Source: Thioalkalivibrio paradoxus ARh 1 (GTDB taxonomy: Bacteria; Pseudomonadota; Gammaproteobacteria; Ectothiorhodospirales; Ectothiorhodospiraceae). Taken from it: a stretch of 64,000 nucleotides of DNA. The notes beneath the pieces were generated by a model. The model searched no databases, was not told the origin of the DNA, and worked only from the letters and a program-made list of their open reading frames with translations. Position 1 is the stretch's first letter. Each line of letters opens with the position of its first letter. Below are positions 1,677 to 64,000 of this stretch, one piece after another. The stretch is from the NCBI RefSeq assembly GCF_000227685.2, contig NZ_CP007029.1, positions 3,632,501-3,696,500 on the forward strand, read 5' to 3'. The translations under genes were made by a program, and so were the position numbers.

Positions 1677-3848
1677 ATGAATTCCGCGCTGCCGACCCTC
1701 GTCGGGGCCGCCCAAGAACCGAGCACCGACTCGACGCGATTCCTGATCAGCGACCTGTGCGCTGAACTCGAATCCTACCTCGAACCCGATCAGATCAACG
1801 AGGTGTACCGGGCCTATCTGTTCGGGGCCGAGGCGCACGAGGGGCAGACGCGGAAGACTGGGGAACCGTACATCTACCATCCGCTGGCGGTCGCCCGGAC
1901 CATGGGCGAAATGCGGATGGACCACCGGGCGATCGTGGCCGCGATCCTCCACGACGTGATGGAGGACACCCCGACCAGCAAGGAACGCATCCGCGCCGAA
2001 TTCGACACTGAGGTCGCGGACCTGGTCGACGGCGTATCGAAACTGACCCACCTGCAGTTCCAGACCAAGGCCGAGGCCCAGGCCGAAAACTTCCGCAAGA
2101 TGATGCTGGCGATCACCCGGGACATCCGGGTGATCCTGATCAAGCTCGCCGACCGGCTGCACAACATGCGCACATTGGGCGTGATGCGGACCGACAAGCG
2201 CCGCCGGATCGCCCGTGAGACGCTGGAAATCTATGCGCCGATCGCCCAGCGGCTCGGCATGAACCGGATCCGCCGGGAACTCGAGCAACTCGGCTTCGCC
2301 GCGCTGTACCCACGCCGTTTCGCGGTGCTCGACGCGTCGGTGCGGCAGGCGCGCGGGCACCGGCGCGAGCCCATGCAGAAGATCGAGGCCGCGATCACCC
2401 ACCGCATGGAGGCCGCCGGAATCGAGGCGCGGATCAGCGGGCGCGAGAAGGGGCTTTACAGCATTTACCGCAAGATGCTGGAGAAGCGCCAGCCGTTCAA
2501 GAAGATCGTCGATGTCTTCGCGGTGCGCATCGTGGTCGCGGACGTCGACACCTGCTATCGCGCGCTGGGCGTGGTGCACAACCTCTACAAGCCGGTGCCA
2601 GGGCGGTTCAAGGATTACATCGCGATCCCGAAATCGAACGGCTACCAGTCGCTGCATACGGTGCTGTTCGGACCTCACGGCAGCCCGATCGAAATCCAGA
2701 TCCGCAGCGCCGAGATGGACCGGGTCGCGGAGACCGGCATCGCGGCGCACTGGCAGTACAAGGCCGGTGACGACCATGCAATGACAGCCCAGAGCCGCGC
2801 CCGCGATTGGCTCAAGGACGTGCTCGAGATCCAGAACAGCGTCGGCAGCTCGATCGAGTTCCTGGAAAACGTCAAGGTCGACCTGTTCCCGGACGAGGTC
2901 TACACCTTCACGCCGATGGGCGAGATCATGGTGCTGCCGCGCGGCGCAACCCCGGTGGATTTCGCCTACGCAGTGCATTCGGACGTCGGCAATCACTGTG
3001 TCACGGCGCGAATCGACCGCCAGCTTGCGCCGCTTTCGGCGCGGCTCCAGAGCGGCCAGACGGTCGAGATCGTCACCGCCCCGGGCGCGCGCCCAAACCC
3101 CGCCTGGCTGTCGTTCGTGGTCACCGGCAAGGCCCGCTCGGGAATCCGTCACTGCCTGAAGTCGCTGCAGTCGGACGAGGCGGCGGCACTGGGCCGGCGC
3201 CTGATGGAAAAGGCGCTGGCCACGCTGGGCCAGGGGCTGGGGCAGATCTCGCCGGTGCGCATGGACCAGGTGCTCGACGCGATGAAGATTCCCGACATCG
3301 ACAGCCTGCTGGTCGAAATCGGCCTCGGCAACCGGATGGCGGCGCTGGTCGCGCGCCAGCTGGTCGGACAGGAACCCGCGCAGGAAGTCTGCGAAGGGTC
3401 TGGTTCGGCGCTGGCGGTCAAGGGCACCGAAGGGCTGGTCGTGAATTACGGGCGCTGCTGTTTTCCGATTCCCGGGGATCCGGTGATCGGGATCCTCAGC
3501 GCGGGACGCGGGCTGGTGGTCCACCGCGAGGCCTGTCGCAACCTGGGCGAACTCCGCGAGCGCAGCGACAAGACGGTATCGCTCGAATGGTCCAACGAGC
3601 CGGGCGCGGAATTCGCGGTTTCGGTGCGCGCCGAGACCGCGAACCGCCGCGGCGCGCTGGCCGAAATGGCGGCGGTCATCGCCGATCATGGCTCGAACAT
3701 CGAGCACATCTCGTTCAATGAGCGCGACGGCCACTCGACCGCGATGACCTTTACGATCACCGTGCGCGACCGCCGCCACCTCGCCCAGGTGATCCGTTCG
3801 CTGCGGCGCCTGAACGACGTGCTGCGGGTACAGCGCAGCCGGGGATGA
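1677..3848 (+). CDS. spoT: Bifunctional (p)ppGpp synthetase/hydrolase SpoT
   Basis: The 723-residue cytoplasmic enzyme makes and degrades the stringent-response alarmone ppGpp. The order is: HD hydrolase domain at about 45-195 with YHPL (His 68) and HD at 92-93; RelA/SpoT synthetase domain at about 250-360 with REKGLYSIYRK, RFKD and SNGYQSLHT; TGS domain at about 400-460; a Cys-containing region GRCCFPIPGDP near 590; and a C-terminal ACT domain from about 645. An intact HD motif and the RFKD motif typical of bifunctional enzymes indicate both activities. Family length is 700-730. It follows rpoZ by 10 bases and is probably co-transcribed with it. Confidence 0.97.
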   Translation: MNSALPTLVGAAQEPSTDSTRFLISDLCAELESYLEPDQINEVYRAYLFGAEAHEGQTRKTGEPYIYHPLAVARTMGEMRMDHRAIVAAILHDVMEDTPTSKERIRAEFDTEVADLVDGVSKLTHLQFQTKAEAQAENFRKMMLAITRDIRVILIKLADRLHNMRTLGVMRTDKRRRIARETLEIYAPIAQRLGMNRIRRELEQLGFAALYPRRFAVLDASVRQARGHRREPMQKIEAAITHRMEAAGIEARISGREKGLYSIYRKMLEKRQPFKKIVDVFAVRIVVADVDTCYRALGVVHNLYKPVPGRFKDYIAIPKSNGYQSLHTVLFGPHGSPIEIQIRSAEMDRVAETGIAAHWQYKAGDDHAMTAQSRARDWLKDVLEIQNSVGSSIEFLENVKVDLFPDEVYTFTPMGEIMVLPRGATPVDFAYAVHSDVGNHCVTARIDRQLAPLSARLQSGQTVEIVTAPGARPNPAWLSFVVTGKARSGIRHCLKSLQSDEAAALGRRLMEKALATLGQGLGQISPVRMDQVLDAMKIPDIDSLLVEIGLGNRMAALVARQLVGQEPAQEVCEGSGSALAVKGTEGLVVNYGRCCFPIPGDPVIGILSAGRGLVVHREACRNLGELRERSDKTVSLEWSNEPGAEFAVSVRAETANRRGALAEMAAVIADHGSNIEHISFNERDGHSTAMTFTITVRDRRHLAQVIRSLRRLNDVLRVQRSRG

Positions 3849-56410: not shown

Positions 56411-57307
56411 ATGACTCGAAACGCCGGCGGGCGTCCCGTGATTTTCGGAGAGGTGCTGTTCGACAGTTTTCCCGAGGGCGCAGACATCCTCGGCGGCGCA
56501 CCCTTCAACGTGGCCTGGAACCTGCGCCGCCTGGGGGCCGAACCGCTGTTCGTCGGGGCCGTGGGCGCCGATGCGCTGGGTGACCGGGTGCGCGCGGCGA
56601 TGGCAGCAGCGGAGCTCGACGCTGCCGCCCTTCAGGTCGTCCCGGATGCCCCGACCGGACGCGTTCAGGTGACCCTGCATGCGGGCGAGCCAAGCTACGA
56701 AATCCTGCCTGACCAGGCCTATGATCGCGTCGACCCGGCGGGGCTCCAGCAGGCGGTGCCGGACGCCCCCGCGCTGCTCTACCACGGGAGCCTCGCGTTG
56801 CGTGCCGAGCCCAGCCGTTCCGCCTGCGCCTGGCTCGCCGAGCGCGCCCGACTGCGTTTCGTCGACGTGAATCTGCGACGCCCCTGGTACCGCCCCGACT
56901 CGGTTCTGGAGTGGTTGCAGCACGCGGACTACGTGAAGCTGAACCGGGACGAGCTGCGCGAACTGGTGGCGGGCACGGACGATGCCGCGCGGGTGGCGAC
57001 ACTGATCGAGCAGGCCGCGATTGGCGGCGCGGTCATCCTGACCGCCGGGGAAGAAGGCGCCGCGATCGTTACGCCGGCGGGGAAGCGGTTCGAAGCGGCG
57101 GCGGCGGTGGTCGACGACCTGCGCGATCCGGTCGGCGCGGGCGACGCCTTCGCGAGCGTGGTCATGCTGGGCATCCTGCGGGGGTGGTCCTGGCCGGCCA
57201 CGCTGGAGCGCGCGCTCGACTTCGCCGCGCGCGTGTGCACGCTGCAGGGTGCGACCACGACCGATCCGTCGTTCTATGCCGCCGCGCGCGAGGCCTGGCG
57301 CGACTAG
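56411..57307 (+). CDS. PfkB-family sugar kinase, probably fructokinase
   Basis: The 298-residue cytoplasmic kinase has the ribokinase-fold N-terminus IFGEVLFDSFPEGADILGGA with PFNVAWNLRRLG, and the PfkB signature DPVGAGDAFASVV near 238-250 containing the catalytic Asp. The EVLFD and GGAPFNVAWNL patterns are those of bacterial fructokinases. With the invertase-like and sucrose-phosphatase-like genes 30 kb away it could serve sucrose turnover, but the distance makes this a guess. An AAGGAG Shine-Dalgarno lies 7 bases before the ATG. Alternatives are other ketose or nucleoside kinases. Confidence 0.83.
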   Translation: MTRNAGGRPVIFGEVLFDSFPEGADILGGAPFNVAWNLRRLGAEPLFVGAVGADALGDRVRAAMAAAELDAAALQVVPDAPTGRVQVTLHAGEPSYEILPDQAYDRVDPAGLQQAVPDAPALLYHGSLALRAEPSRSACAWLAERARLRFVDVNLRRPWYRPDSVLEWLQHADYVKLNRDELRELVAGTDDAARVATLIEQAAIGGAVILTAGEEGAAIVTPAGKRFEAAAAVVDDLRDPVGAGDAFASVVMLGILRGWSWPATLERALDFAARVCTLQGATTTDPSFYAAAREAWRD

Positions 57308-57426: not shown

Positions 57427-59445
57427 CTAGGCACGCCAGCCGAGGGCTTCGGCCTTGCGGCGGGCGACGCGCGGGATGTCGGCGGCGACGAAGTGCTCGT
57501 GCAGCACCTGGACGCTGATCATGTGGTTGATCACCGCGTCGAGCTGAACCTGGGTCGCGACCGGGGTGTCCTCGGCCTCGTGTAGCGCGAACAGGCGGGC
57601 AACGCCTTCCGGATCCAGCAGCCCGGCTGCCTCGATTGCTTCCGTCGACAGGTACTGATCCGCCAGCGCCTTCATCGCCGCCCATTTCTTCGGGTCGGTA
57701 TGCGCCGGCGGGGCCATGAACGCGAACTTCTCGCGCTCGTAGAGCACCCGCGGCAGCAGACCCTTCATCGCCTCGCGCAGCACGTATTTCTCGGTACGGC
57801 CCTTGATGCGCATCGACGGCGGCAGCTGCGCCGCGAATTCGGCCAGGTGATGGTCGAGAAACGGCGGGCGGGCCTCCATCGAGTTGGCCATGTCGACCCG
57901 GTCGCCGCCCCAGGTCAGGATCTGCCCCTCGAGCATGGTCTTGATCCAGACGTACTGGGCCTTGTCGAGCGGATGCCGGCCTTCGAGCATATCCGCATCG
58001 AGCGCGCTGGCGATCGCGGCGCCGGGCGCGTAGCCGGCGAGCGCTGCGCGCCGCCCCGGAGCCAGCAGGCCCGGAACGTGATCGGCGGCGGCCAGCCAGG
58101 GCTGCAGGCAGGACGGGGTGAACCCGACCAGCCGGGTCAGCGCCGGGTCGTCTAGTTCGTTCTCGGCCAGCATCGCGCCGCTGAACAGTTTGTTGCTCTC
58201 GGCCAGGAGCTGTTCCCAGGACGCGCGTTCCGCCGGCGGCAGGGTGTCGAGCCCGTGCAGGAACATGTCGCGCCGGAACGCCGGATAGCCGGCGAACAGC
58301 TCGTCCGAGCCCTCGCCGGTGACCACGACCTTGTAACCCGCCTCGTTCACGTGCCGGCTCATCAGCAGCTTCGCGACACCCAGCGTGTTGTAGATGGATC
58401 GCTCCGTGTGCCACAGCGTCTCGACCAGGTTGTCGTACAGGTGGTCGGCCTGCAGGGTCATGATGTCCTGGTCCGCTCCGACGCTCTCGGCCATCTCGCG
58501 GGCGATCGCGGTCTCGTCGTAGGCGGCGTCGTCGAAGCCGATGGTGAACGCCTTGACCGGGCTCTGCTGGCTGGCCGCCGCCAGCCCGAGCGTGATGCAG
58601 GAGTCGATCCCACCGGACAGATAGCAGGCGACCGGGACATCGGCCTCGAGCCGCAGCTGCACCGCCTCCATCAAGTGCTCGCGTACGCCCTCGATCCAGT
58701 ATTCCTCGTCGGTGTCGTCGTGCTCGGGGCGCTCGGCCGCCAGCGGGAAGTCCATATCCCAGTACTTCTCCTGACGCACTTTCAGCTTTCCGTGGGCGCG
58801 TTCGACGATCACCATGTGGCCGGGCTTCACCTGGTGTACGCCCTCGAACGCGGTAGTCCCAGGCACGATGGTCTGCATCAACTGGTGGAACAGCCCGGTG
58901 TCCGAGAATCGGCGCGGCACATCCGGGTGCGCGAACAGCACCTTCAGCTCGGAGCCGAACACGAATGCGCCGTTCGCCTCGGTGAAATACAGCGGCTTGA
59001 CGCCGAAGCGGTCGCGGATCAGCACCAGCCGGTCGTGCTCGCGGTCGTACAGCGAGATCGCGAACTCGCCGCGGAAGTGCGGGATCGCATCCTCCAGCCC
59101 CACGCGCCGGTAGAGGTGCATCACCATTTCCGAGTCGCTCTTGGTGCGGAACTTGACGCCGCGCAGCGTCAGGTCGGCGCGGATGCGCTTGTAGTCGTAC
59201 AGCTCGCCGTTGACCGCGGTCATGATGCTGTTGTCGGGCATCACGAACGGCTGCCGGCCCCGGTCCTCGTCGAGGTCGATGATCGACAGCCGGGCATGGG
59301 AAAAACCGACGCCGCGGTCCTGCTGCACCCGGTAGCCGAAGCCGTCCGGTCCGCGGTGGTACTGGATCGCGGCCATCGCGACCAGCGTTTCGGGATCGAC
59401 CCGGCGCTCCGGGTCGGCGTGAAAGATTCCTGCGATGCCACACAT
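57427..59445 (-). CDS. Asparagine synthetase B-like amidotransferase
   Basis: The 672-residue protein has a class II glutaminase domain with nucleophile Cys 2 (MCGIAGIFHADPER, YHRGPDGFGYRV, VNGELYDYKRIRADL) and a synthetase domain with the ATP-binding SGGIDS in VACYLSGGIDSCITLGLA near 264 and VVTGEGSDELFAGYP near 370. Canonical AsnB makes asparagine from aspartate and glutamine, but paralogues amidate other carboxylates in secondary pathways. It is longer than E. coli AsnB (554). As last gene of the carbamoyl/ureido operon, 119 bases after the carbamoyltransferase paralogue, an alternative substrate is plausible. Confidence 0.88.
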   Translation of the reverse strand: MCGIAGIFHADPERRVDPETLVAMAAIQYHRGPDGFGYRVQQDRGVGFSHARLSIIDLDEDRGRQPFVMPDNSIMTAVNGELYDYKRIRADLTLRGVKFRTKSDSEMVMHLYRRVGLEDAIPHFRGEFAISLYDREHDRLVLIRDRFGVKPLYFTEANGAFVFGSELKVLFAHPDVPRRFSDTGLFHQLMQTIVPGTTAFEGVHQVKPGHMVIVERAHGKLKVRQEKYWDMDFPLAAERPEHDDTDEEYWIEGVREHLMEAVQLRLEADVPVACYLSGGIDSCITLGLAAASQQSPVKAFTIGFDDAAYDETAIAREMAESVGADQDIMTLQADHLYDNLVETLWHTERSIYNTLGVAKLLMSRHVNEAGYKVVVTGEGSDELFAGYPAFRRDMFLHGLDTLPPAERASWEQLLAESNKLFSGAMLAENELDDPALTRLVGFTPSCLQPWLAAADHVPGLLAPGRRAALAGYAPGAAIASALDADMLEGRHPLDKAQYVWIKTMLEGQILTWGGDRVDMANSMEARPPFLDHHLAEFAAQLPPSMRIKGRTEKYVLREAMKGLLPRVLYEREKFAFMAPPAHTDPKKWAAMKALADQYLSTEAIEAAGLLDPEGVARLFALHEAEDTPVATQVQLDAVINHMISVQVLHEHFVAADIPRVARRKAEALGWRA

Positions 59446-59564
59446 AGACTGTCTCCTGAAGTTTTTGGGGGGCGGCCGCAGCGCGTCTGCGTCTCGTCAA
59501 CCGCGCGCGGCTGCCCCGACCGGGTTCCTGTCGCCGGCGCCCGCCGACCCTCGCATGGCCGCGG

Positions 59565-60641
59565 TCACTGTTCCGGGGTGTCCATCACGGCGCTGATCCG
59601 GCGCACCACCGAAGTCAACAGCGCCATGCGCACGAACACCGCACCGCGGGCCTGGGCGAAGTACCAGTTGTGAGGGGTGTCATCGAGATCGGTGGCGAGC
59701 TCGTCCCCCCGCGCCAGCGGGTGCAGAATGATCGCACCCGGTTTCAGCGGCGAGTTCCGGGTCAGGTGCAGGCCGGTGCCCAACGACTCGAAAGTGTCGC
59801 CGACCCAGGCGATCGCGTTGATGTACACCACGTCGAGTTCCGGCAACACCGGGTCGAGCTGGTCGACCACGCGCAGCACCAGCCCCGCGGCCTCGAGTTC
59901 CTCGCGCTGTCCGGCGTCGAAATTCTCGTCCTCTCGGGAGATGATCACGACTTCGCGGATCGCCTCCGGGAAGCGGCCGAGCATCAGCAGCAGGCTGCGC
60001 ACCGTGCGCATGCGCGAGGGCACGCCGATGATTCCGACCCGGATGCGCGCCTGCAGGTCGACCTCCCCGCGGAACAGGTCCGGGCGCCACTTGGCCAGCG
60101 TGTACACGTCGGCCAGCGCCTGGGTGGGGTGCTCGTCGATGCCGTTGCCGGCGTTCACGATCGGGATGCGGAGCCCCTCCAGCATCTGGTAGACCGCCTG
60201 ATCCTCGCTGCTGCGCAGCACGATCACGTCGCCGTAGTTGTTGAACATCTCGGCGATGTCGACCAGCGACTCGCCCTTGGCCATACCGGTGCTCTTCGGA
60301 TCGGTGATCGACATGATCGCGCCACCGAGCCGGTGCCAGGCGCTCTCGAACGACAGCCGCGTGCGCGTGGATGGCTCGTAGAAGGCGCTGATCAGGATCT
60401 TGCCCGTCAGCGGCAGGTGCATCAGCGCCGGTGTGGCTTCGTACTGCGCGGCCAGCCGAAACAGCTGGATCAGCGTCGCACGGTCGAACTGCCGGCTGGA
60501 CACCACATGCCGGGCCGCGAGTTCGAGCAGGGGTTCGGGGTCTTCCGGCAGCGCATCGACCAGAGCCCTCGGCCGCTCGATGCCGGCTGTGCCGTCCTTC
60601 GGTTGCAGCGGTCGCTGCAGCTGTTCGTCCAGGTGGGTCAC
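59565..60641 (-). CDS. Aspartate-carbamoyltransferase paralogue with altered amino-acid site
   Basis: The 358-residue protein has the carbamoyl-phosphate site of transcarbamylases: STRTR in FYEPSTRTRLSFESAW, an equivalent of E. coli PyrB Lys 84 in MAKGES, an Arg in IVLRSSED, EHPTQAL, and Arg in RMRTVRSL. The C-terminal ARGDELATDLDDTPHNWYF follows PyrB. However, where PyrB has the aspartate-binding MTRVQKER (Arg 229, Gln 231), this protein has INAIAWVG, so aspartate is unlikely to be the acceptor. The start is GTG 60641 with GAGAGG 7 bases upstream. The leader of about 60 residues before the fold is unusual. Confidence 0.87.
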   Translation of the reverse strand: MTHLDEQLQRPLQPKDGTAGIERPRALVDALPEDPEPLLELAARHVVSSRQFDRATLIQLFRLAAQYEATPALMHLPLTGKILISAFYEPSTRTRLSFESAWHRLGGAIMSITDPKSTGMAKGESLVDIAEMFNNYGDVIVLRSSEDQAVYQMLEGLRIPIVNAGNGIDEHPTQALADVYTLAKWRPDLFRGEVDLQARIRVGIIGVPSRMRTVRSLLLMLGRFPEAIREVVIISREDENFDAGQREELEAAGLVLRVVDQLDPVLPELDVVYINAIAWVGDTFESLGTGLHLTRNSPLKPGAIILHPLARGDELATDLDDTPHNWYFAQARGAVFVRMALLTSVVRRISAVMDTPEQ

Positions 60642-60765
60642 GCGGAACCTCTCGTGCTGTCTGGAGGGAAGCGGTCGGGGTACCCGCGGCATTTGGGCCG
60701 GAATCGGGCCGCCGGGTCCGCTCGAGTGGCCGGACCGGCCGGCATCGTGCACGCGTCGGCGCTGT

Positions 60766-61503
60766 TCACGAGGCCTGCCGCGCACGGGTGATTTCTGCGA
60801 CTGCCTCGGCGGTGGTCATCACCCGCGCGTACCGGTCCCGGATGGTGGTGATGGTCGCCTCCTGCAGTTCCGGCGTCACGGTGGTACAGCCGTCCTCGAT
60901 CAGCGTCACGTAGAACCCGAGGTCGCAAGCGTCGCGTACCGCGGTCGAGACACACTCGTTGGTATAGACCCCTACCATGAACAGCGAGCTGATGTCGAGA
61001 TTGCGCAGCAGGTAGTGCAGGTTGGTCGAATTGAAGACGCCGCTGGCGGTCTTGTTCAGCACGATCTCGTCGCCCACCGGCGCTACCGACTCGACGAACT
61101 CGGCCTCCTTCGAGCCGGGCGAGGCATGCAGGTTCAGCCGCTTGTGGCCGGGGCTGCGGTCCCGGCCGTCACGCGTCAGCGACTGGATCCGGGTATGGAT
61201 CACCTCGAGCTGCCGTGCCCGGAACGCGTCCTGGAGCTTGCGTACGTTCGGCAGCACCTCGGTCTCGAGCTGGTGGAAGTAGTATTCCTGGGCTGCCAGC
61301 GGCACCCCCGAGGCGGCGACATCGGCGAACACGCCGTGCCCGCGCGCCGCATCGAGGTACTGCAGGTCGATACACAACAGCGCGACATGGTGGCGCGCAA
61401 GCTCCTCGCGCAGCAGGCGGGTCGAGATCAGGCTGCCGCGGTACTGGTCGCGCAGCGGATCGAGCGCGTCGAAATCGGTGATGCTGGTGATCTTGTCGGT
61501 CAT
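60766..61503 (-). CDS. Isochorismatase-family cysteine amidohydrolase
   Basis: The 245-residue cytoplasmic hydrolase has the Asp-Lys-Cys catalytic triad of the isochorismatase-like family: Asp 46 in LLCIDLQ, Lys 151 in LNKTASGVF and Cys 184 in GVYTNECVSTAVRDA. Cysteine members such as N-carbamoylsarcosine amidase, ureidoacrylate and biuret hydrolases release ammonia or carbamate from amides and ureides; true isochorismatase lacks the Cys. ATG 61503 has GGAGG upstream. It follows the carbamoylase by 12 bases, so a ureide or N-carbamoyl substrate fits the context. The exact substrate is not shown. Confidence 0.88.
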   Translation of the reverse strand: MTDKITSITDFDALDPLRDQYRGSLISTRLLREELARHHVALLCIDLQYLDAARGHGVFADVAASGVPLAAQEYYFHQLETEVLPNVRKLQDAFRARQLEVIHTRIQSLTRDGRDRSPGHKRLNLHASPGSKEAEFVESVAPVGDEIVLNKTASGVFNSTNLHYLLRNLDISSLFMVGVYTNECVSTAVRDACDLGFYVTLIEDGCTTVTPELQEATITTIRDRYARVMTTAEAVAEITRARQAS

Positions 61504-61515
61504 CGGATCCTCCCG

Positions 61516-62757
61516 TCAGTCGCGGGCCGCGAGCGCCAGCACGCTGCTCAGCATCAGGTTTGCGCCCGCCTCGATGTCTTCCCAGTTCGTCCACTCGCCC
61601 GCGGAATGGCTGCGGCCCTCGATGCTGGGCACGAAGATCATGCCAGTGCGCGCCACCGAACTCATGCTCTGGGTATCGTGCGCCGCGCCGCTGGGCATGC
61701 GCAGGTAGGCCTGCCCCATCGCCTCGGCCTCACGGGCGATCAGTTCGACCAGGCCCGGATCGCATTTCGCCGGCGGAATCTCGGACAGCACATCGAACTC
61801 GAACATCAGGTCGCGGCGCCGCGCAATACTGGACAGCGTGCGCCGGCAGGCATCCGACAGCGCCTTCAGCACCCGGTCGTCGGTGTCGCGAACCTCCAGC
61901 GAGAAGGTCGCGAGACCGGGAATCGTGTTCGCGGCACCCGGCTTCAATTCCACCCGACCGATGGTAGCGCGGCTGTTCGGGCCGCCGTGCTCCTCCAGGA
62001 TGCGGTTGATCTCGCCGCCGAACTCGGCCAGCCCCTGGAACGCGTCGATGCGCATGTCCATGGGCGTGGTACCGGCATGGTTGGCCTGACCCTTCAGCCG
62101 CACCTCCCACTTGAACAGCCCGGTGATCGCTTCGACCACGCCGATGCCGATCCGCCGCCGGTCGAGCACCGGCCCCTGCTCGATATGCAGTTCGAGGAAC
62201 GCATGGATGCTGTTCGGGTCGCGGCGGGCGTCCAGCGCGTCGTTCGCGTCCAGGCCCCAGCTGGCCATCGCATCCACCAGCGTGATCCCCTCGAGATCCC
62301 GGGCGCCGTGGATCCGTTCCGGCGTCAGCTGCCCGGCCATCGCCTGGGATCCGAACAGCCCCCCGAAGCGCCCCTCCTCGTCGCTGAAGTCGATGACCTC
62401 CAGCGGGAAACGCAGCGCAATGGCGCGTTCCTTCACGGTACGCAGAACCTCGAGCCCGACCAATACCCCGAGGGCGCCGTCCAGCGGCCCACCGCCAGGC
62501 ACGGTATCGAGATGGGATCCCATCACTACCGCCGGACGCTTGCCATCGAAATCCAGGCGTCCATGAAGGTTTGCGGCACCGTCCTGGTGGATCTCGATGC
62601 CGGCCACCGCGAGGCGTTGCCGGAACCAGTCCCGCCCCTGCCGATCGCACTCGGTGAACGCACGGCGATTGAGACCGAATTCCGTGTCGCGACCGACCTG
62701 CGCGAGGTCCATCACGTCCTGGCGCAGGCGCTCCATGTTCACTCGTGTTTCGGACAT
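61516..62757 (-). CDS. M20-family N-carbamoyl-amino-acid hydrolase / allantoate amidohydrolase
   Basis: The 413-residue binuclear metal hydrolase has the family's ligands: His 82 in VMGSHLDTVPGGG, Asp 93 in GPLDGALG, Glu 127/128 in DFSDEEG, His 191 in LELHIEQGPVLD and a C-terminal His in GRSHSAGEW near 385. The HIEQG segment is the mark of the hydantoinase/carbamoylase (HyuC/AmaB/AllC) branch as opposed to plain peptidases. It should remove carbamoyl or ureido groups. Distinguishing L-carbamoylase from allantoate hydrolase needs a tree. ATG 62757 follows the MarR gene by 52 bases. Confidence 0.9.
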   Translation of the reverse strand: MSETRVNMERLRQDVMDLAQVGRDTEFGLNRRAFTECDRQGRDWFRQRLAVAGIEIHQDGAANLHGRLDFDGKRPAVVMGSHLDTVPGGGPLDGALGVLVGLEVLRTVKERAIALRFPLEVIDFSDEEGRFGGLFGSQAMAGQLTPERIHGARDLEGITLVDAMASWGLDANDALDARRDPNSIHAFLELHIEQGPVLDRRRIGIGVVEAITGLFKWEVRLKGQANHAGTTPMDMRIDAFQGLAEFGGEINRILEEHGGPNSRATIGRVELKPGAANTIPGLATFSLEVRDTDDRVLKALSDACRRTLSSIARRRDLMFEFDVLSEIPPAKCDPGLVELIAREAEAMGQAYLRMPSGAAHDTQSMSSVARTGMIFVPSIEGRSHSAGEWTNWEDIEAGANLMLSSVLALAARD

Positions 62758-62809
62758 CGTGATTCCCGTTTACGGATTTCGGAGTCGGTAGCGTACCGCG
62801 GGCCGCAGG

Positions 62810-63319
62810 TCATCCACCGCCATCAAAGGGTTGCAGGCCGGCCATCGGCTCAGCGGACGCCATATGCCCCACCAGCGCGTGCAGCGACACATTGAGTGCC
62901 GCCAGCTCTGCCGGGTCGAGCGCATGCAGCGCCCGGTTCAGCTCGCCCTGGGGCGCAGCGGGCGCTCGCTCGAGCAGCGCGTCTCCGGCCGGGGTCACGA
63001 ACACCCGCACGATACGCTGATCCCGCTGGCGCCGCATGCGCTCGATCAGCCCCGCCTGCTCCAGCTTGTCCAACAGGTTCGATGTGGTCGACGGGTGCAC
63101 CGAAAGACGCCGCGACAGGTCGCCGACATTCAGTCCGGGGCTGCCTCGTACCTCCCACAACGCCCACAGCTGCGCCGCACTGATGCCACAGGAACGCTGC
63201 ACGCTGCGCGAATGGCCCTGCAGTGCACGGATGATCACCCGAAGCTGGCGGATGACCGAATGCACGGTTTCGGTCCGGTCGCCGTCGGGCGACGGGGATG
63301 CACCATCAGGCGCGGACAT
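62810..63319 (-). CDS. MarR-family transcriptional regulator
   Basis: The 169-residue winged-helix regulator has SCGISAAQLWALWEVRGSPG near 47, the recognition helix in LSRRLSVHPSTTSNLLDKLE near 72-91 and the wing RRQRDQRIVRVFVTPAG near 100-116. It is first in the minus-strand operon with the carbamoylase, amidohydrolase, carbamoyltransferase and AsnB-like genes, and divergent from a porin; MarR proteins commonly repress their own operon and respond to a small ligand. ATG 63319 gives the normal length (about 150-170). Confidence 0.85.
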   Translation of the reverse strand: MSAPDGASPSPDGDRTETVHSVIRQLRVIIRALQGHSRSVQRSCGISAAQLWALWEVRGSPGLNVGDLSRRLSVHPSTTSNLLDKLEQAGLIERMRRQRDQRIVRVFVTPAGDALLERAPAAPQGELNRALHALDPAELAALNVSLHALVGHMASAEPMAGLQPFDGGG

Positions 63320-63849: not shown

Positions 63850-64000
63850 ATGAACAAGAAGATCCTCGCGGCGCTGGCCGCCGCTTCGCTGTTTCCCCCG
63901 GGCCTGGCCGCTGCCGACGACGGTGCGGGCGGTCTGAACATCCATTTCTACGGCTCGCTGCGAATCCACGGCGAGCACGTGCGCCCCGACAACCGGGACG
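63850..64000 (+). CDS. Gram-negative porin, 5' end (cut by window edge)
   Basis: The first 50 residues are a signal peptide (MNKKILAALAAASLFPPGLA, cleavage after AAA near residue 22) followed by GGLNIHFYGSLRIHGEHVR, the first beta-strand of general porins (FYGS/LR pattern). The mature protein would form an outer-membrane channel. The AGGGAG Shine-Dalgarno ends about 6 bases before the ATG. It is divergent from the MarR operon and could take up the compound that operon handles. The remainder is outside the window. Confidence 0.8.
   Translation, partial: MNKKILAALAAASLFPPGLAAADDGAGGLNIHFYGSLRIHGEHVRPDNRD

Follow-up and report, generated by a model that had tools for sequence, protein, structure and literature searches.

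Here we describe a five-gene operon at positions 57427-63319 of a 64,000-nucleotide stretch of Thioalkalivibrio paradoxus ARh 1 DNA (contig NZ_CP007029.1, positions 3,632,501 to 3,696,500; hereafter the window). The operon probably serves to build and recycle a compatible solute in the form of an amino acid with two caps, for which Nα-carbamoyl-L-glutamine 1-amide (CGA), a rare osmoprotectant of halophiles, is the best candidate. In the text available of the reports concerned, CGA accumulates in Ectothiorhodospira marismortui (PMC1224877, PMC3857566) and is also mentioned from other purple sulfur bacteria, without species (PMC7824335). Its biosynthesis genes appear to be unassigned so far, making CGA an orphan compatible solute: no gene assignment was found in the available portions of the open-licence literature, and a report elsewhere is possible. 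The main text of two papers on Thioalkalivibrio under salt or cold stress has no mention of a carbamoyltransferase, asparagine synthetase or isochorismatase.

The operon and its proposed chemistry

All five genes are intact, stop-free and in frame, and all lie on the minus strand. A sequence-only reading of the window had named these genes and placed them 12 to 124 bases apart. A frame check gives gaps of 52 bases (MarR to M20), 12 bases (M20 to the isochorismatase-fold gene), 124 bases (from there to the carbamoyltransferase) and 119 bases (carbamoyltransferase to AsnB), as had been read, and Pfam and NCBIfam scans concur with all five names. The genes are:

57427..59445, minus strand, AsnB-like glutamine-dependent amidotransferase (672 aa)
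59565..60641, minus strand, carbamoyltransferase (CTase) resembling aspartate carbamoyltransferase (ATCase) (358 aa, GTG start)
60766..61503, minus strand, isochorismatase-fold cysteine amidase (245 aa)
61516..62757, minus strand, M20 N-carbamoyl-L-amino-acid amidohydrolase (413 aa)
62810..63319, minus strand, MarR-family regulator, the first gene of the operon (169 aa; PF01047, 58 bits)

To make CGA, a cell has to place a carbamoyl group on the amine and amidate C1; to break it down, it needs an amidase and a carbamoylase. The operon has one enzyme for each of these four steps. We propose that the CTase would transfer the carbamoyl group of carbamoyl phosphate to the alpha-amine of L-glutamine, and that the AsnB-like enzyme would then, with ATP and with nitrogen from glutamine, turn the alpha-carboxylate of N-carbamoyl-glutamine into an amide, an outcome in which both charges of glutamine would be masked. 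For breakdown, the isochorismatase-fold amidase would hydrolyze the C1 amide and the M20 carbamoylase would take off the carbamoyl group, releasing glutamine. MarR is predicted to regulate the operon, and a sodium:solute symporter (SSS) with a small partner protein, both encoded at another locus, would retrieve leaked solute. In this scheme we infer the substrates, the order of the steps, the direction of transport, the regulation and the osmotic role.

We predicted beforehand that the operon would be present in E. marismortui, the species known to make CGA. Its type strain, DSM 4180 (locus L064, FOUO01000006.1), has the same five genes in the same order, with protein identities to the window operon of 58% (MarR), 72% (M20), 73% (amidase), 78% (CTase) and 82% (AsnB). 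The original 1991 work on CGA reportedly used strain DSM 4180. PMC8877833 tabulates the parent accession, FOUO00000000, under E. marismortui DSM 4180. Carriage of the operon by a producer supports the link to CGA, and the chemistry of CGA matches the operon enzymes.

Enzyme specificity

The CTase shares its fold family and carbamoyl-phosphate motif with PyrB, the genuine ATCase, and its best solved relatives are ATCases. Across 27 aligned homologues, STRTR, K122, R143, H171, Q174 (in HPxQ) and R212 are invariant, and the ATCase/OTCase superfamily signature (the STRTR carbamoyl-phosphate motif together with HPxQ) is present in every one. The Arg and Gln of the aspartate loop, however, are absent from all 27, with A/S/T and A/S/V in their place (ATCase TR-I-Q stands opposite CTase NA-I-A), and the CTase falls under the NCBIfam ATCase cut-offs (TIGR00670, 187 bits vs 237; NF002032, 184 vs 263). 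A genuine PyrB at another locus of the window genome exceeds both (308 and 403 bits). The lost pair corresponds to the aspartate-binding R229 and Q231 of E. coli ATCase, and an Arg equivalent to ATCase R167 is invariant in 27/27. Because the aspartate Arg and Gln are lost while the carbamoyl-phosphate residues and the R167-equivalent Arg are kept, the predicted pocket would suit an amino acid whose alpha-carboxylate is free and whose side chain carries no charge. The predicted structure has a predicted local distance difference test score (pLDDT) of 85.8 and a predicted template modeling score (pTM) of 0.88. Purine-ureide clusters of the YgeW/allantoate type also bring carbamoyltransferase and M20 genes together; the window operon differs from them in holding AsnB and the amidase, and YgeW models match the CTase at merely 28-29 bits.

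The AsnB-like protein has domains PF00733 and PF13537, and its N-terminal glutaminase residue Cys2, the SGGIDS ATP loop and E378 are invariant in 6/6 sequences. It scores 415 bits against the general model TIGR01536 (cut-off 267), 390 bits against TIGR03108 (XrtA amidotransferase; under the cut-off) and 308 bits against TIGR03104, the AsnO of N-acetylglutaminylglutamine amide (NAGGN) synthesis, for which the cut-off is 570. Because it clears TIGR01536, the general model for asparagine synthases, it would go unrecognized by anyone relying on annotation. In a tree from which six paralogues were left out (five from Pleionea and one from Aliikangiella, mostly long branches), the operon AsnBs form one clade (100/100), separate from four AsnO proteins and from E. 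coli AsnB, which sits on a long branch.

The window genome encodes GatB (594 bits) and has no AsnRS above the cut-off, as do E. marismortui, E. mobilis and Thiorhodospira sibirica, so asparagine can form on tRNA and the operon AsnB is unneeded for the asparagine of proteins. Single genomes of Kangiella, Idiomarina and Pseudidiomarina have AsnRS and AsnA (the Idiomarina AsnA match with one internal TGA), and Pleionea and Aliikangiella have AsnRS and further AsnB-like genes, with no AsnA. As PyrB and a tRNA-dependent asparagine route exist elsewhere in the genome, neither the CTase nor AsnB looks like a housekeeping copy. Housekeeping pyrimidine or asparagine synthesis was accordingly rejected as the role of the operon, given the genuine PyrB and either GatB without AsnRS or, in other carriers, AsnA.

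The two hydrolases have the features expected from their names. The amidase matches PF00857 at 113.5 bits, with D46, K151 and C184 invariant in 6/6; we take these residues to be the Asp-Lys-Cys triad of isochorismatase-fold cysteine amidases. Among its relatives with solved structures are N-carbamoylsarcosine amidohydrolase and biuret hydrolase. The M20 protein is above the cut-offs of TIGR01879 (363 bits vs 204) and of NF006771, a model named for allantoate amidohydrolase (521 vs 399); its second-best model is the N-carbamyl-L-glutamate amidohydrolase ErtE (395 bits, under the cut-off of 520), and its best solved relative is 3n5f, an N-carbamoyl-L-amino acid hydrolase (E 9e-100). H82, D93, E128, H191 and H384, presumably the metal ligands, are invariant in 6/6.

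In architecture and regulator, the operon parallels the NAGGN osmolyte operon (asnO-ngg-peptidase). According to the available text of PMC8070244, the MarR protein PA3458 of Pseudomonas aeruginosa represses the adjacent AsnO-GNAT-peptidase operon that makes NAGGN, and control by PA3458 matters for growth at high osmolarity. Both systems would combine AsnB-family amidation of a glutamine carboxylate with a partner enzyme that caps the amine, and both would have a hydrolase gene inside the operon, an adjacent MarR regulator and a part in osmoadaptation. They differ in the cap, which here is proposed to be carbamoyl via the CTase and in NAGGN is acetyl-glutaminyl via Ngg, and in AsnB, as the operon enzymes form the separate clade described above. 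The window genome has its own NAGGN-type AsnO at another locus (G000:C1:2322745-2324517, 901 bits vs the cut-off of 570), and AsnO is likewise present in E. marismortui, E. mobilis and T. sibirica. NAGGN synthesis by the operon itself was rejected, since AsnO lies elsewhere and no acetyltransferase is among the five genes.

Conservation, co-occurrence and neighborhood

The window genome is a single contig of 3.76 Mb. Within the genus, 20 of 25 genomes, this one included, have the CTase at E 1e-180 or better; the other five are 67-80% complete, and one of them (G013) has a 22-residue CTase fragment with 91% identity. Around the CTase, 18 of 19 same-genus relative loci have all five genes, MarR among them, with AsnB cut by the contig end in one, and the remaining locus is a 3.2-kb contig with the CTase and AsnB only. 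A scan of named genomes for the CTase gave 210 relatives, the closest being Thioalkalivibrio and the first a metagenome-assembled genome (MAG) labeled T. paradoxus. AsnB is found in 77 of the best 80 of these 210, the set from which locus results were drawn, and neighbors within 6 kb were counted at the 58 named loci whose flanks exceed 6 kb on the upstream side of the CTase and 5 kb on the downstream side. At these loci AsnB is present in 57, M20 in 50, SSS in 48, the amidase in 46, a small gene in 40 and MarR in 30. The co-occurrence of the enzyme genes in other genomes, proposed from the sequence as a check on the operon, is thus borne out both within the genus and beyond it. Both hydrolases are present at 46 of the 58 loci, M20 alone at 4 and neither at 8, with the search confined to the locus flank; at 7 loci SSS, CTase and AsnB are adjacent and both hydrolases are missing from the surrounding 6 kb. 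The single locus without a nearby AsnB is that of T. sibirica (L067, G041), where AsnB is elsewhere on the same contig and the CTase, AsnB and SSS are at three separate places.

In many relatives the operon holds two genes beyond the five, for SSS and for the small protein. The window operon is without SSS, which is encoded at another locus of the same genome. SSS matches PF00474 above the cut-off and TIGR00813 at 141 bits, under the cut-off of 184. The small protein (copies at L117:7922-8410 and L038, approximately 2897-3325) has, by eye, a signal-like start, a C-terminal hydrophobic segment and an FN3-like character; the L038 copy gave no match in Pfam or NCBIfam, and the L117 copy none in Pfam. 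Its gene adjoins the unlinked SSS in four of five genomes (window genome, G010, E. marismortui and E. mobilis) and was not found beside the unlinked SSS of T. sibirica, so it is possibly a partner of the transporter.

The CTase, AsnB and SSS were searched separately in 369 gammaproteobacterial genomes, with at most 5, 3 and 4 candidates, respectively, scored per genome and with thresholds of E 1e-150 for operon-type AsnB and E 1e-100 for SSS. G195 and G304 were set aside after the scores had been seen, their CTase matches being 245-247 bits vs at least 374 bits in the rest. The operon-type CTase is then found in 23 of the 369 genomes, spanning 15 families. Operon-type AsnB is in exactly the same 23 genomes and in none of the 346 others, and SSS is in 22 of the 23 and again in none of the 346. 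With G195 and G304 included, the CTase is in 25 genomes, AsnB in 23 and SSS in 22. The only genome with the CTase and AsnB that has no SSS match, G111, is 81% complete, and four of the 22 do carry SSS, though far from the CTase (window genome, G138, G353 and G273). Fisher P is approximately 2e-34 or lower; related genomes are not independent, and the 23 carriers cover 15 families. Our reading is that the set consists of a synthesis pair (CTase and AsnB), a transport pair (small protein and SSS) and a breakdown pair (amidase and M20) whose linkage is looser.

A more distant, second carbamoyltransferase subfamily scores 245-252 bits against the operon CTase profile (G195:C275:3863-4858, G304:C246:2495-3499 and G278:C2:413235-414224), and G278 holds both kinds. 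Several Leptospiraceae and Spirochaetaceae MAGs (L078, L088, L093, L097, L099, L102, L107 and L113) carry the same set in the order SSS-CTase-M20-amidase-AsnB, and this different order may reflect transfer between phyla.

Two neighbors of the operon lie within the window:

63850..64000, plus strand, start of a divergent Gram-negative porin gene (Porin_4; start approximate, extends beyond the window end)
56411..57307, plus strand, PfkB-family sugar kinase, convergent with the operon and left out of the system

The porin is a real gene, as had been noted. The external substrate suggested from it has little backing, since tblastn with a Thioalkalivibrio porin matched Thioalkalivibrio loci only, and we rejected a role for the porin in the system. 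In several Ectothiorhodospira loci, too, a PfkB kinase lies approximately 250 bases to 2.3 kb from where the operon ends. Beyond the porin, upstream of the operon and just outside the window, is a BCCT-family transporter gene (G000:C1:3697501-3699171; L041 11001-12671), which scores 459 bits against TIGR00842 (cut-off 408) and does not reach the threshold of NF047988, a glycine betaine model. Its presence there suggests an osmolyte neighborhood.

Alternative readings and implications

The sequence-only reading had offered two roles, building and breaking an N-carbamoyl or amide compatible solute or signal, or degrading a ureide. The first is supported, with CGA as the probable solute. In the second, catabolism of a ureide or hydantoin, SSS would import the ureide, M20 and the amidase would hydrolyze it and the CTase would run in reverse to carbamoyl phosphate, which would agree with the allantoate amidohydrolase model that M20 passes and with a symporter in the operon of most relatives (48/58 loci). 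This scheme has no place for an ATP-using, amide-forming AsnB, yet AsnB is the strictest partner of the CTase, and the hydrolases are more loosely linked, with neither within 6 kb at 8 of the 58 loci, the rest of those genomes being unsearched. Hosts in the family of the window genome are moreover autotrophs or phototrophs, and we consider ureide breakdown quite improbable as the main role. Still less credible, to the point of deserving next to no weight, is a chance grouping of a second ATCase, an ordinary asparagine synthetase and unrelated hydrolases. AsnB does pass the TIGR01536 asparagine synthase cut-off, but the CTase and AsnB share their 23 genomes and are absent from the 346 others, the CTase is under the ATCase cut-off with its aspartate residues gone and PyrB present, and carriers have either GatB without AsnRS above the cut-off or, in one genome each of Kangiella, Idiomarina and Pseudidiomarina, AsnA. 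Conservation excludes a chance grouping. The sequence-only reading would have given up the operon if the genes did not stay together elsewhere and the CTase could stand in for PyrB; the genes do stay together, and the genome encodes a genuine PyrB at another locus. The same logic could also yield another product, an N-carbamoyl amide of asparagine, glutamate or another amino acid, serving as a solute, nitrogen store or signal. The set is also carried by Spirochaetes, Kangiella and Idiomarinaceae, from which no CGA report was found in the literature; however, no N-carbamoyl amino-acid amide other than CGA is named as a solute in the literature found, and its producer has the operon, so we think a different product unlikely.

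Several observations weigh against CGA as the product or against an osmotic role. In the parts available, a review gives CGA from one organism only and as a minor solute (PMC3857566), and work on Thioalkalivibrio solutes describes glycine betaine and sucrose (PMC5328954, PMC9062515). Ectothiorhodospira and the window genome belong to one family, and the operon is in 8/8 Ectothiorhodospira loci, so its presence in the producer is support and neither proof nor an independent test. The TIGR01536 score points to asparagine synthetase, and AsnB is no closer to AsnO than to asparagine synthase or the XrtA amidotransferase. A symporter would also fit nutrient uptake. In the co-occurrence sample the CTase is neither tied to ectoine synthase, which marks salt-adapted species, nor incompatible with it (2/23 carriers vs 48/346 others).

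Named cultured carriers belong to genera of marine, saline or soda-lake habitats. We regard it as an evenly balanced question whether CTase, AsnB and SSS are central to an osmolyte pathway that is widespread but has been overlooked. CGA, so far described from little more than a single bacterium, would then be a common solute in 15 or more gammaproteobacterial families and in some Spirochaetes, which would explain osmoadaptation in Idiomarinaceae. According to the available text of a 2024 genome paper, six Pseudidiomarina strains have no ectoine or betaine synthesis genes, and the osmoadaptation strategy of Pseudidiomarina terrestris is not deducible from its genome (PMC10893183); other Pseudidiomarina and Idiomarina species carry SSS-CTase-AsnB. 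If our proposal is true, a carbamoyltransferase of new specificity would join a well-studied superfamily, and organisms without a known osmolyte would have a testable answer. The orphan compatible solute CGA would gain a genetic basis, and many more salt-living bacteria would be suggested as its makers.

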